Shown: piece by piece, positions 5,774 to 16,167 of the stretch
Layout of the letters: every line of letters begins with the position of its first letter
How positions within the stretch are numbered: position 1 is the stretch's first letter
IMG/VR virus record: IMGVR_UViG_3300018875_000038
Location: 1-39,661 of that record
Length of the DNA: 39,661 bases
Source: a virus
Direction: 5' to 3' (one strand)
Notes under the pieces: model-generated
Seen by the model: only the letters and a program-made list of their open reading frames with translations
Databases searched by the model: none
What the model was told of the DNA's origin: nothing
Made by a program: the position numbers and the translations under genes

Positions 5774-6526
5774 TCAGTGAGCCTCCGCCTCTTCGCGAGT
5801 GATGTAGAAGTGAATGCCGGACGAGCACTCATCCTGCCAATTGTCATCCCAGGCATCGGGCTCGACGCGCTGACCCGCGACATACGTGGTCTTGCTGTCG
5901 TGAAGGCTGACGCCCTTCTCGGCACCGATCACCTCAACCACATCGACAAACGATGCGCGGCACTTGCGCCCGAAAGCGTGTGAACGCTTGGCGTCGGCTG
6001 GAATGCGAAGTTTGACGATCACTCCGTCTCGGCACTTTTTCCAGCCGATCAGGTCTCCTTCCGGCAGGATGCGCGTTCTGGCGATGGCAAGCTCAGCGCC
6101 CTTGGCACCCGCGAGGTTGGCATCCGCGAGGTTGGCACCCGCGAGGTTGGCATCCGCGAGGTTGGCACCCGCGAGGTTGGCATCCGCGAGGTAGGCACCC
6201 GCGAGGTTGGCACCCGCGAGGTAGGCACCCGCGAGGTTGGCACCCGCGAGGTTGGCATCCGCGAGGTTGGCACCCGCGAGGTTGGCATCCGCGAGGTTGG
6301 CATCCGCGAGGTTGGCATCCGCGAGGTAGGCACCCGCGAGGTTGGCACCCGCGAGGTAGGCACCCGCGAGGTTGGCACCCGCGAGGTTGGCACGCGCCCC
6401 AGTCGCCCACTGGACAGCCAGTCCGACCTTGACGGAGCGCGGAGCGCCTTCGTCACATTCGATCTCGGCAGTGAACTGAACCTTGCCGGAAAAGCGGTTG
6501 AAAATGTCGAATTTGATGAGAGGCAT
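5774..6526 (-). CDS. Pentapeptide-repeat protein with conserved C-terminal domain
   Basis: 250 residues in three parts. Residues 1-45 are a beta-rich N-terminus ([16 protein letters not shown]). A block of 19 consecutive pentapeptides A[N/Y]LA[G/D] follows, predicted to form a right-handed quadrilateral beta helix. The C-terminus (about residues 158-250; [22 protein letters not shown] is its first part) resembles the DUF5758 domain found behind pentapeptide repeats in phage proteins. Some relatives mimic DNA (Qnr/MfpA); here the repeat has Asp on one face only in part, so DNA mimicry is speculative. The repeat DNA is unusually uniform. Confidence 0.82.
6107..6391. repeat. 15-bp tandem repeat, 19 units (inside pentapeptide gene)
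   Basis: Nineteen head-to-tail 15-bp units read GCC-[A/T]AC-CTC-GCG-G[G/A]T on the coding (minus) strand. Only two positions vary, giving Asn/Tyr and Gly/Asp; every other base is constant. Because the unit is a multiple of three, gain or loss of copies keeps the gene in frame. All three minus-strand frames are open across it, which explains the overlapping shadow frames. Confidence 0.97.
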
Positions 6527-13403: not shown

Positions 13404-13624
13404 CCCTCCGCTTCCCAAGCCGCGTCACCTATTTCGAGAACGTGAAGGAGCGAGGCCCTGAGCCTGCACAGGTGCTTGCTCATGCGATCCCGCTATGGCG
13501 AGCCGGTCTCGACACCGACGCCATCACCCGTCGTCTCAACGACGAGTACGGCTGGCTGCTGCATCCGGCCCTGGTTGCAAATGAGATCGCGCGTTGGCGT
13601 GATGGTCGAGCGAGGGCCGCATGA
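13400..13624 (+). CDS. Hypothetical protein, possible HTH
   Basis: 74 residues. AQVLAHAIPLWRAGLDTDAI followed by TRRLNDEYGWLLHPALVANEI has the look of a helix-turn-helix of the type 'W-x-GLs-x-x-IA-x-LN'. It is coupled by ATGA to the gene before and by the same overlap to the methyltransferase gene after it. Small regulator or accessory factor; not proven. Confidence 0.6.
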   Translation: MTLRFPSRVTYFENVKERGPEPAQVLAHAIPLWRAGLDTDAITRRLNDEYGWLLHPALVANEIARWRDGRARAA

Positions 13625-14760
13625 ATGGCGCCCGCGCTTACTATAACGAAATCGACCCGTTCGCCGCGGCGTGGCTTCGCAGCCTCGCTGCAACTGGACT
13701 TATTCTCCCTGGAGACGTGGACGAGCGCGACATCCGAGACGTCCATCCCGACGATCTCCGCGGCTACACCCAGTGTCATTTCTTTGCCGGTATCGGCGTC
13801 TGGAGCTACGCGCTCCGTCTCGCCGGATGGCCTGACGACCGTCCCGTCTGGACGGGATCATGCCCCTGCCAACCTTTCAGCGCGGCAGGCCGAGGCGGCG
13901 GGTTTGCTGACGAGCGGCACCTATGGCCGCACTGGCACCATCTCATCCGCGAGTGCCGCCCTCCAACAATCTTTGGCGAGCAGGTTGCAAGCAAGGACGG
14001 CCTCGCTTGGCTCGACCTTGTTCAAGCTGACCTGGAAGGAGAGGACTACGCCTGCGGGGCGGTCGATCTCTGCGCTGCGGGCGTCGGCGCGCCGCATATC
14101 AGACAGCGACTGTGGTTCGTGGCCAACGCCAACGAAGTCGAACGGGGACGGGGGACAGATCGCCAAGGATTGCTCGCCAACGGGCAAACGATCGGACGGC
14201 AGCAAGGCCACGGTGAGTCTGAACCAGATCGCTCAGCTTTCCTCTTGGGCAACGCCGAACACGGTAGACGCGAAAGGCGGCACGCGGAACGGCCCTGGCC
14301 AAGTGCAACTTTGTCATCAGGCGAAGCTAGCAGGTTGGGGCACGCCGAACGCTTCAGCCCCCGGCGGAACGCCGGAGCAGGCGCTAGCGCGCAAGGCGGG
14401 CCTGTCGTGCGGCCAGAGTGTGACGACGCTGGACCATCAGGTGCAGTTGGCGGGTTGGCCTACGCCGATGGCTGGGACGCCAGCGCAGAAGGGCTACAAC
14501 GCGGCGGGCAACACGGACAGTTCGCGCACGACGCAGGCGCTTGTGACGGCGCTGGAAGGCCCGGCCCGACTAACGGCTTCTGGCGAGATGCTGACTGGCT
14601 CTTCTGCCGGGACGGAAAGTGGCGGCCAGTTGAGCCCGGCACATTCCCGTTGGCTCATGGGGCTCCCGCCCGCGTGGGACGCCTGCGCGGTTACGGCAAT
14701 GCAATCAATGCCGAAGCGGCGGCGCAGATGATCGCGGCGGCTATGGAGTGTCTGACGTGA
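13621..14760 (+). CDS. DNA cytosine-5 methyltransferase (Dcm-like)
   Basis: 379 residues. C5-MTase motifs in order: I, FFAGIGVWSYAL near 53-64; IV, GSCPCQPFSAAGRGGGF near 78-95 with the catalytic Cys in PCQ; VI-like FGEQVAS near 118-124; VIII, QRLWFVA near 161-167; and X, GYGNAINAEAAAQMI near the C-terminus. The part between VIII and X is the target-recognition region and holds spaced 'L-[AG]-[NHY]-A' segments. It probably modifies phage DNA against host restriction. Uniquely, a second long frame (+1) is open through almost the whole gene and itself looks conserved. ATGA overlap with the preceding gene; stop overlaps the next GTG start. Confidence 0.9.
   Translation: MNGARAYYNEIDPFAAAWLRSLAATGLILPGDVDERDIRDVHPDDLRGYTQCHFFAGIGVWSYALRLAGWPDDRPVWTGSCPCQPFSAAGRGGGFADERHLWPHWHHLIRECRPPTIFGEQVASKDGLAWLDLVQADLEGEDYACGAVDLCAAGVGAPHIRQRLWFVANANEVERGRGTDRQGLLANGQTIGRQQGHGESEPDRSAFLLGNAEHGRRERRHAERPWPSATLSSGEASRLGHAERFSPRRNAGAGASAQGGPVVRPECDDAGPSGAVGGLAYADGWDASAEGLQRGGQHGQFAHDAGACDGAGRPGPTNGFWRDADWLFCRDGKWRPVEPGTFPLAHGAPARVGRLRGYGNAINAEAAAQMIAAAMECLT
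13625..14731 (+). CDS. Overlapping +1-frame ORF inside the methyltransferase gene
   Basis: This frame is open for 368 codons within the methyltransferase gene. From about 13850 onward it reads like a real protein: GLLTSGTYGRTGTISSASAA, STLFKLTWKERTTPAGR, and a C-terminus ending SPAHSRWLMGLPPAWDAC. Four W[PAG]TP motifs (about 14120, 14246, 14336, 14456) recur with an 'H-Q-x-x-LAGW' lead-in. I recognise such sequences from stand-alone phage hypotheticals. The first 75 codons look like shadow, and there is no obvious ATG near 13850, so how it is translated is unclear (internal start or frameshift). Confidence 0.5.
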   Translation: MAPALTITKSTRSPRRGFAASLQLDLFSLETWTSATSETSIPTISAATPSVISLPVSASGATRSVSPDGLTTVPSGRDHAPANLSARQAEAAGLLTSGTYGRTGTISSASAALQQSLASRLQARTASLGSTLFKLTWKERTTPAGRSISALRASARRISDSDCGSWPTPTKSNGDGGQIAKDCSPTGKRSDGSKATVSLNQIAQLSSWATPNTVDAKGGTRNGPGQVQLCHQAKLAGWGTPNASAPGGTPEQALARKAGLSCGQSVTTLDHQVQLAGWPTPMAGTPAQKGYNAAGNTDSSRTTQALVTALEGPARLTASGEMLTGSSAGTESGGQLSPAHSRWLMGLPPAWDACAVTAMQSMPKRRRR

Positions 14761-15410
14761 GTTCGCCGGGCGAAGCCATCAAACGCATGATCGAACTCGG
14801 CGCCACGCCTGAGATGGTCGCGGCTGCGGTCGATGCTATCGTTTCCGCAACAGCCAACGCAGGGCCTTCCGGTTCTGCCCGCACCGCCCGTCAGGAGCGG
14901 AACGCTCGTTATTACCAGCACCGCAAAGAGCGTCTCAAAGCGTCTGAAACGTCTGAATTAAGACGGTTTCAGACGGTTTCAGACGGTGTGTCGGTCCCTC
15001 CTCCCGAGGAAATGTCCCCCACACCCCCTAAAACTCAACCCTCTACCCAAGACTCCTCTTCGCCTCCTCCGGAGGCTCAGGCCCCCTCATCGGCGAGAAC
15101 CTCTCGGGGCCATCGCTTGCCTCAGGACTGGCAGGCCAGCGAAGCCGATCGAGACTTCGCCCGTCAGCAGGGCTGGACCGATACTGAGATTGACCAAGCC
15201 GAGGCGGAATTCCGGGACTACTGGCATTCCGTGCCCGGCAAGCAGGGGACCAAGCTCGACTGGTCCGCGACGTGGCGCAACCGGATCCGCCAGATGGGGC
15301 CCCGCCGGACGCGAACGAATGGCCGCGATCCGCCGCGCAATCCCTGGATTGCCGAAGCCGAGAAGCATCACCGCAACCTGGAGGCCAAGCGCCATGAACG
15401 CCCTCACTAA
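14757..15410 (+). CDS. Phage replication initiation protein (O/DnaT-like)
   Basis: 217 residues from the GTG at 14757, which overlaps the methyltransferase stop (GTGA) and has GGAG 8-9 bases upstream. Three parts: a helical N-terminus to about residue 60 (EMVAAAVDAIVSATANAG, RNARYYQHRKERL), a Pro/Ser/Thr-rich linker (about 75-115), and a C-terminal domain with LPQDWQASEADRDFARQQGW, then FRDYWHSVPGKQGTKLDWSA and TWRNRIRQM. The last block is the signature end of DnaT-like and phage replication proteins that recruit helicase. An iteron-like DNA array lies in its linker-proximal part, as in lambda O. Confidence 0.72.
   Translation: MSSPGEAIKRMIELGATPEMVAAAVDAIVSATANAGPSGSARTARQERNARYYQHRKERLKASETSELRRFQTVSDGVSVPPPEEMSPTPPKTQPSTQDSSSPPPEAQAPSSARTSRGHRLPQDWQASEADRDFARQQGWTDTEIDQAEAEFRDYWHSVPGKQGTKLDWSATWRNRIRQMGPRRTRTNGRDPPRNPWIAEAEKHHRNLEAKRHERPH
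14931..14990. repeat. Iteron-like array, candidate phage replication origin
   Basis: Copies of GTCTGAA or its near-match occur at 14932 (GTCTCAA), 14942 and 14951 in one orientation. The reverse form TTTCAGAC occurs at 14967 and 14977, and AGACGGTTTC is repeated exactly at 14961 and 14971, with AGACGGTGTG at 14981. The units are phased at about 10 bp, one DNA turn. The array lies inside a replication-protein gene and is followed by a pyrimidine-rich stretch, the layout of lambdoid origins. Confidence 0.6.
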
Positions 15411-16167
15411 ATCACAGCGCGGAGTTCCGCCCCAGCCGGCGTCCCGGGAACTGGTTGACCTCATCGCCCGGTTCTCCAGCGCTATTGAGGAAATCCCGGG
15501 TCAGTGGCGGCACCGCGCCATTCTGGACACCTACGCCCCGAAGGGAGCCGAACGTCAGGTTCTCGAAGCAAGACGGGAGGCCCTGAACGCGGCGCTGACC
15601 CCGGCGGACCCCGATTTCATCGGGCGCAGCATCAGCGCCCTGAAATCCGCCTTCCCGTATCGCAACGAGGACAGCTCCGATGTCGAGAAGGTCAAGCGCC
15701 TCTACATCGCGGCCCTGCAAAGCTTTCCGGAATGGGCGATCTCAGAGGCATGCCGTCGCTTTCTGGAGGGCAGGGTAGGGAACCGGACCTTCGCTCCGAC
15801 GCCTCCGGAGCTTGCCGCGGAGTGCCGCAGCATCTTGGTGGCCGTCCACGAGGAGGCAGGCAAGATCGATCGTATCCTTGAGGCGCAGGTTTACCGGCTG
15901 CCTTCCCCGGAACAGCAGAGGCGCATCGAGGAAGGTTTCGCGAAGCTCCGCGATGAACTCTTGAGCCAAGCCAATCCGGAGAAGCGGCGCGACGATGCTC
16001 CGGTGAAGCAGCTCGCGGAGACAAGCCAGCGCCTTGTCGAGCGAGAGCTTGCCGCCGCCGGAATCGGTGACGGGCTGAACATGAGCTTAGCCCTCCGAAA
16101 CAAGATGGCTGGGATCAGGGCAGACCTGGAGGCGAAGCAAAAGCTTGCGGCGACACCGTCCCGCTAG
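15394..16167 (+). CDS. Replication-associated protein (helicase-loader candidate)
   Basis: 257 residues from ATG 15394, overlapping the upstream gene by 17 bp. Contains YIAALQSFPEWAISEACRRF and then LEGRVGNRTFAPTPPELAAE, a pattern common in phage proteins directly after the initiator gene. The C-terminal half is helical and charged (QQRRIEEGFAKLRDELLSQ; QRLVERELAAAGIGDG). No Walker A motif is visible, so it is not an ATPase of the DnaC type. A role in primosome loading or as a helicase partner is inferred from position. Confidence 0.62.
   Translation: MNALTKSQRGVPPQPASRELVDLIARFSSAIEEIPGQWRHRAILDTYAPKGAERQVLEARREALNAALTPADPDFIGRSISALKSAFPYRNEDSSDVEKVKRLYIAALQSFPEWAISEACRRFLEGRVGNRTFAPTPPELAAECRSILVAVHEEAGKIDRILEAQVYRLPSPEQQRRIEEGFAKLRDELLSQANPEKRRDDAPVKQLAETSQRLVERELAAAGIGDGLNMSLALRNKMAGIRADLEAKQKLAATPSR

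Follow-up and report, generated by a model that had tools for sequence, protein, structure and literature searches.

To our knowledge, the replication origins of most phages are unmapped. In phage lambda, the iterons and an AT-rich tract are described as lying inside gene O, with the origin containing four 19-bp iterons, each of which is an inverted repeat (PMC7466680). For mycobacteriophages, an origin located upstream of or inside repA has been proposed, and no repeated motifs were reported between the tail genes and parS-L (PMC7157519). Here we describe a locus in the virus record IMGVR_UViG_3300018875_000038, the whole of which (39,661 bases) was analyzed and is referred to below as the window. 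The locus resembles the lambda origin in that a repeat array occupies the middle of an initiator gene and separates its N-terminal from its C-terminal part, a strand-asymmetric stretch lies beside the array, and a candidate helicase loader gene adjoins the initiator gene.

Results

The initiator gene and its surroundings

The window encodes a P22-like portal and a terminase, assigned through profile matches, and also a CI/LexA-like repressor and a major head protein. Among named phages, 231 records showed DNA similarity; in the 20 matches listed of these 231, the matched features were the upstream methyltransferase or hypothetical proteins, all in the same stretch. Partial matches were present in 5 and 14 records of the plasmid collection, and no relatives were returned from the viral collection when either the whole initiator or the portal protein served as the query. 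GC skew along the window did not indicate an origin anywhere. A cytosine methyltransferase gene (13621-14760) lies directly 5' of the initiator gene, and a DNA methylase gene is also found shortly 5' of the initiator gene in Mycobacterium phages Xeno and LOCV2. Tandem Repeats Finder also reports a 15-bp unit present in 19.7 copies at 6102-6397, a repeat denser than the array in the initiator gene. It consists of direct copies with no inverted pairs and lies within a minus-strand open reading frame (5774-6526). Most of the profiles matched by this open reading frame have no known function, and one is that of a tail fibre protein. The features of the initiator locus are collected in Table 1.

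Table 1. Features of the initiator locus, in window coordinates
Feature	Position	Strand	Remarks
Replication initiator gene, 217 aa	14757..15410	+	GTG start; second in-frame GTG at 14748
Modelled N-terminal part, proposed array reader	14766..14972	+	AlphaFold2; unit tracking; putative binding
Array of six 8-bp units	14931-14985	three + then three -	Mirror axis at about 14958; proposed core of the origin, for initiator binding
Strand-asymmetric stretch, proposed opening/entry region	14988..15090		C-rich, G-poor + strand; GC skew to -0.48; putative function
C-rich element TCCCCCACACCCCCTAAA	15015..15032	+	27 nt past last repeat
DnaT-like C-terminal domain (residues ~117-180)	15105..15296	+	Alignment, model, structural neighbours
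Next gene, 257 aa, candidate lambda P-like loader	15394..16167	+	17-nt overlap with initiator gene; model, Foldseek

Two profiles were matched by the initiator protein, phrog_1408 (E 1.6e-11), labelled "replication initiation protein", and phrog_3992 (E 3.2e-11), labelled "primosomal protein"; no Pfam family was matched. An AlphaFold2 model built from 27 sequences (mean pLDDT 80, pTM 0.42) predicts helices at residues 4-13 and 18-34 and a long helix at residues 39-72 with a basic sequence, followed in turn by a stretch of low confidence, a compact domain spanning roughly residues 119-180 and a last helix. As modelled, the N-terminal part would be a helical hairpin with a long basic helix. Ranked first among the structural neighbours of the compact domain were the DnaT single-stranded DNA-binding domains 4ou6 (Z 6.1) and 6aeq (Z 5.9), in a ranking limited to chains pre-selected by Foldseek and with both Z values below 8. 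The match to these DnaT domains covers residues ~116-185, with an rmsd of 3.1 over 63 residues (Z 6.1) and 12-14% identity, and has a Foldseek E of 4.1. With E values up to 1 allowed, the Pfam DnaT model was matched by 3 of 27 relatives, the best of them at 0.0029, and a profile search of solved structures with the same limit returned three sequences, with DnaT not among them. There is moderate evidence that the C-terminal domain of the initiator resembles DnaT.

The preliminary description had placed the array between the N- and C-terminal domains of a DnaT/O-like protein. Its position is upheld, and the DnaT-like character of the C-terminal domain has moderate support (Z 6.1 and 5.9). No O-like profile matched the window initiator; among 27 relatives, the "O-like" profile phrog_345 matches two and phrog_678 matches one. 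Using tblastn, the C-terminal part of the initiator was found in 149 named phage records, the rows listed starting at residues 114-117, and none of these records spans 80% of the initiator. One such relative, gp52 of Pseudomonas phage F10, is encoded directly 5' of DnaC-like and DnaB-like genes.

A mirrored repeat array constrained as DNA

With a unit defined as an 8-mer having at most one mismatch to CGTCTGAA, the array contains three plus-strand units (14931-14938, with one mismatch, 14941-14948 and 14950-14957) and three minus-strand units (14958-14965, with one mismatch, 14968-14975 and 14978-14985), and it encodes residues 59-77 of the initiator. The repeat block is confirmed as real: the GTCTGAA-type units in both orientations noted earlier correspond to these six 8-mers, three per strand, and the exact 10-bp direct repeat, described as present twice with a near copy, was recovered as AGACGGTTTC at 14961-14970 and 14971-14980, with the near copy at 14981-14990. 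Tandem Repeats Finder reports this part as 14961-14987, with a period of 10, 2.7 copies and 100% matches. The phasing of about 10 bp that had been proposed fits the 10-bp spacings but is not uniform, as the unit centers are spaced by 10, 9, 8, 10 and 10 bp. As a refinement of the earlier description, the block is mirror-symmetric, and its arms (14931-14950 and 14966-14985) are 90% complementary.

CGTCTGAA occurs five times in the window compared to 1.34 expected, a count of five or more being reached in 2 of 100 shuffles, and four of the five copies are confined to 45 bp. In 200 first-order Markov simulations of the window, no 8-mer exceeded three copies per 60 bp; the observed maximum is four, attributed to CGTCTGAA, which the tandem repeat at 6102-6397 could tie. 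In addition, a codon-resampling control was conducted in which the peptide was fixed and codons were drawn from 17 window open reading frames in 20,000 trials. The 15 direct 7-mer pairs observed were reached in none of these trials, the 12 inverted pairs in one, and their sum in none. Each of the three minus-strand units falls in a codon phase of its own, and the array is therefore not a peptide repeat. The constraint on the array acts on the DNA.

Arrays in related initiators

Alignment with six phage initiators yielded at least 577 relatives in the viral collection, the best 80 of which were used. The locus set, made up of these best relatives, named phages and the window, comprised 87 loci with the C-domain motif, which were dereplicated to 75 and reduced to 74, window included, by removal of one locus at a contig end (L081). 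As only the best 80 of at least 577 relatives were used, the 74 loci lean towards the window protein.

In a repeat profile spanning -900 to +600 nt around the C-domain start of these 74 loci, direct repeat pairs peak at 11.3 at -120, compared to about 0.3-1 far away, and inverted pairs reach 1.8, compared to about 0.3-0.6. The linker is equalled by at most 5% of the other segments of its locus at 49 of the 74 loci for the total score, at 53 for direct pairs and at 23 for inverted pairs. Codon resampling gave p ≤ 0.01 for 53 of the 74 linkers (window included) versus 1 of the 74 C-domain stretches; by pair type, 51 linkers reached this threshold for direct and 20 for inverted pairs, and 21 of the 74 failed the control. 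Arrays are therefore common in this initiator family, with only a minority of them mirrored. In the family as a whole, the stretch preceding the C-domain has a slightly raised A+T content, up to 0.05 above that of its locus, and a purine/pyrimidine asymmetry about twice that found elsewhere.

Three further sequences were recorded in these searches. The string CCAATAACC/GGTTATTGG is present in seven of the 74 linkers and in none of the flanks (loci L012-L091), and may represent either another signal common to these loci or a repeat at the coding level. A striking GGGGTCAGAATGTGACCCC array is found in the initiator open reading frame (1093-1896) of Pseudanabaena phage Pam5 (L004), whose record does not annotate this open reading frame and has an annotated coding sequence starting at 1697. 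The exact 20-base array pattern TTTCAGACGGTTTCAGACGG was matched in one viral contig (L011, 9263-9287), where the repeat lies at or just past the apparent end of a coding stretch and is followed by a G run; this match was set aside as unrelated after its surroundings had been read.

Array units and the initiator N-terminal part

Unit sharing was assessed in a set of 112 entries, dereplicated to 101, of which 96 initiators contained repeated 6-mers. When the N-terminal parts were similar, pairs shared a unit in 12 of 51 cases where the C-domains differed and in 52 of 191 where they were alike; the corresponding counts for pairs with different N-terminal parts were 115 of 1855 and 125 of 2463. 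A permutation test of unit sharing gave p = 0.0002 for the N-terminal part and p = 0.51 for the C-domain. It is the N-terminal part, and not the C-domain, that the array units track. Shared descent explains part of this tracking, which consequently supports recognition of the units without proving it.

Individual loci fall on both sides of this trend. L103 and L092 have N-terminal parts similar to that of the window and share its units, as does L106, with a slightly lower N-terminal score. Under the three-copy rule, L118 (the best N-terminal match to the window, 33.1 bits) and L113 have no repeated 6-mer in common with it, and L052, L058, L088 and L125 have one unit in common with the window without N-terminal similarity. 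By eye, a window-type N-terminal part together with GTCTGAA units was seen in L103, L106, L110, L113 and L127, and also in Falsochrobactrum shanghaiense (L293). The C-terminal parts of L103, L106, L113 and L127 do not carry the motif of the window. Minus-strand units number three in L127, two in L103 and one each in L110 and L113, and this variation in unit number among relatives is as expected of iterons.

A C-rich element beside the array

Among the 74 loci, which were not selected for the C-rich element, a relaxed form of it is present in eight linkers (window included), five times on the sense strand and three times on the other, and in two places outside the linkers in about 4.9 kb per locus. 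Only some members of the family therefore have the element. A relaxed form is carried on the other strand by the Mycobacterium phages L005 and L006. The exact 18-mer TCCCCCACACCCCCTAAA was found in 46 viral stretches and 25 bacterial genome stretches, and, under a separate array rule, an array lies 5' of it at 27 of the 45 viral loci tested and at 8 of the 23 from genomes, the latter eight having Alphaproteobacterial or Bacteroidota titles.

The side on which the array lies was determined for 71 loci with the five-C form and 56 with the six-C form; 6 and 9, respectively, were skipped owing to contig ends or too little background, and removal of near-duplicates left 46 and 40 distinct loci. The array is on the 5' side of the C-rich strand at 29 of the 46 five-C loci and on the 3' side at 3, compared to about 1.4 expected, and on the 5' side at 22 of the 40 six-C loci and on the 3' side at 1. 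Reading frames were taken from the longest overlapping open reading frame, a rule that can choose the wrong frame, as it did once for the window. By this rule, the 22 six-C loci with arrays read the element in frames 0, 1 and 2 in 8, 4 and 8 cases and antisense in 2, and 24 of the 29 array-bearing five-C loci read it in one frame, which counts against frame independence; the evidence on frame comes from the six-C form. Since the searches were keyed to exact strings, the identity of the element among these loci is by construction, which does not apply to the results on side and frame.

In all loci, 115 matches to the encoded SPTPPKE stretch were found, 39 in the exact codons and 76 in other codons, and an array lies upstream of 18 of the 39 versus none of the 76. 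The 76 are perhaps largely unrelated proteins, so all that follows from this comparison is that no other spelling turned up next to an array. We conclude that the C-rich element is kept as DNA, with a fixed polarity to the array. No description of the element was found in the literature searched, which covered full text for its spellings and titles and abstract openings for origin topics, most subscription journals lying outside this search.

A candidate helicase loader

Foldseek with a model of the next gene product ranks lambda P bound to DnaB first of 199 (E 0.099, rmsd 26.5). The gene (15394-16167) has no Pfam match, and tblastn found no relatives of it among named phages. Relatives were found in ten loci, each just downstream of and overlapping the initiator open reading frame; this nearness is partly built in, because initiators or the C-rich element had been the basis for selecting the loci. 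These signs of an initiator-loader pair are consistent but weak.

Discussion

From the sequence, we predict that the array is probably the initiator-binding core of the phage replication origin, lying inside the gene of its own initiator. Computationally, this prediction is well supported by the DNA-level constraint on the array, the initiator profile matches, the recurrence of arrays in 53 of 74 linkers, the tracking of the N-terminal part by the units, the DnaT-like domain, the candidate loader and the position of F10 gp52 before DnaC-like and DnaB-like genes. Counting against it are the 21 of 74 linkers that fail the control, with only 20 passing by inverted pairs, the loci at odds with the unit tracking, the modest structural matches and a GC skew that indicates no origin. 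In the proposed mechanism, the N-terminal part of the initiator would bind the mirrored CGTCTGAA sites, all six of them nearly on the same helix face, and the bound initiators would bend or wrap the DNA, forming a compact nucleoprotein complex. The asymmetric stretch that contains the C-rich element could then be opened or used as an entry site, and the DnaT-like C-terminal domain, on a disordered tether, together with the candidate loader, would bring the host DnaB helicase. The binding step draws on the DNA-level constraint, the recurrence in linkers and the unit tracking, and the later steps on analogy with lambda.

Mirrored short sites are typical of operators, and the phage has a CI/LexA-like repressor gene, so the array might instead be an operator at which a phage regulator, or the initiator itself, binds and controls how the replication genes are transcribed, with the origin elsewhere. 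We consider this unlikely, as the site lies mid-gene in the initiator linker, where arrays recur in most relatives tested, and its units track the initiator's own N-terminal part; autoregulation and origin function could coexist at the array. The symmetry might also reflect an RNA hairpin in the initiator mRNA, acting in translation control or termination. A strong hairpin is predicted for the array stretch (-36.8 kcal/mol, z -5.46), with 0 of 200 shuffles as stable, and z ≤ -3 was obtained for 14 of the 74 family linkers versus 2 of the 74 controls; yet the hairpin is weaker in seven loci that have units of this kind (z -1.65 to -3.44), and most family arrays are mainly direct repeats, which need not fold, making such a role quite improbable.

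Boundary sequences have been discussed as exchange joints for lambdoid phages. That the array and the C-rich element are a homology joint for exchange of initiator domains, with no role in initiation, would fit the finding that different C-terminal domains follow the element in loci where the N-terminal part and the array are similar, but it leaves the phage-specific units and the mirrored arrangement unexplained, and exchange is compatible with origin function; as a sole explanation it seems highly improbable. Plain peptide repeats such as SPSPSP and TETETE do occur in the linkers of some relatives, as expected if the repeats were a by-product of coding for a low-complexity protein linker, an explanation to which we give almost no weight, since it is contradicted by the codon resampling, the three codon phases and the 53 of 74 relatives passing the control.

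For the origin reading, the C-rich element suggests a tentative extension, to which we give slightly less than even odds. TCCCCC(C)ANACCCCC(C)TA may be an undescribed shared part of phage origins, a DNA signal standing always to one side of arrays that otherwise differ from phage to phage, retained in any reading frame and found in phages or prophages from more than one bacterial phylum, that would mark the site of strand opening or of helicase/primase entry. The N-terminal domain with its array, the C-rich element and the interchangeable, loader-recruiting C-terminal domains would then be three exchangeable modules. If the origin sits in the initiator linker, it would be predictable for many phages and prophages from a DNA-level array, sometimes accompanied by the C-rich tag. 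Each array paired with its likely reader domain would also provide a natural collection of protein-DNA specificities, and the role of the C-rich tag is posed as a concrete question.

DnaT is a restart-primosome protein and is not known to bind origins; the likeness here is to its C-terminal single-stranded DNA-binding domain, in the predicted fold of window residues ~116-185. As in iteron plasmids and with mycobacteriophage RepA, short putative initiator sites are tightly linked to the initiator gene. RepA of phage Miko is described as supporting plasmid replication (PMC7157519); Miko repA lacks the C-domain motif of the window family and a comparable array, and therefore neither supports nor refutes an origin in the window. 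An origin inside an initiator gene, of the lambda type, is of an already known kind. The earlier suggestion that the array is placed as in lambdoid origins holds for the mid-initiator linker; the adjoining element is C-rich and not AT-rich. Unlike the lambda origin, the window has six 8-bp mirrored half-sites about 10 bp apart and a C-rich element without an adjacent AT-rich tract, the GC fraction being 0.51 at 14900-14999 (the array), 0.55 at 14950-15049 and 0.62 at 15000-15099. Unlike lambda O, the window initiator has no O-like profile match and has a DnaT-like C-terminal domain. New features are the shortness and mirrored arrangement of the sites, the C-rich element that accompanies them and, among relatives, a modular organization.
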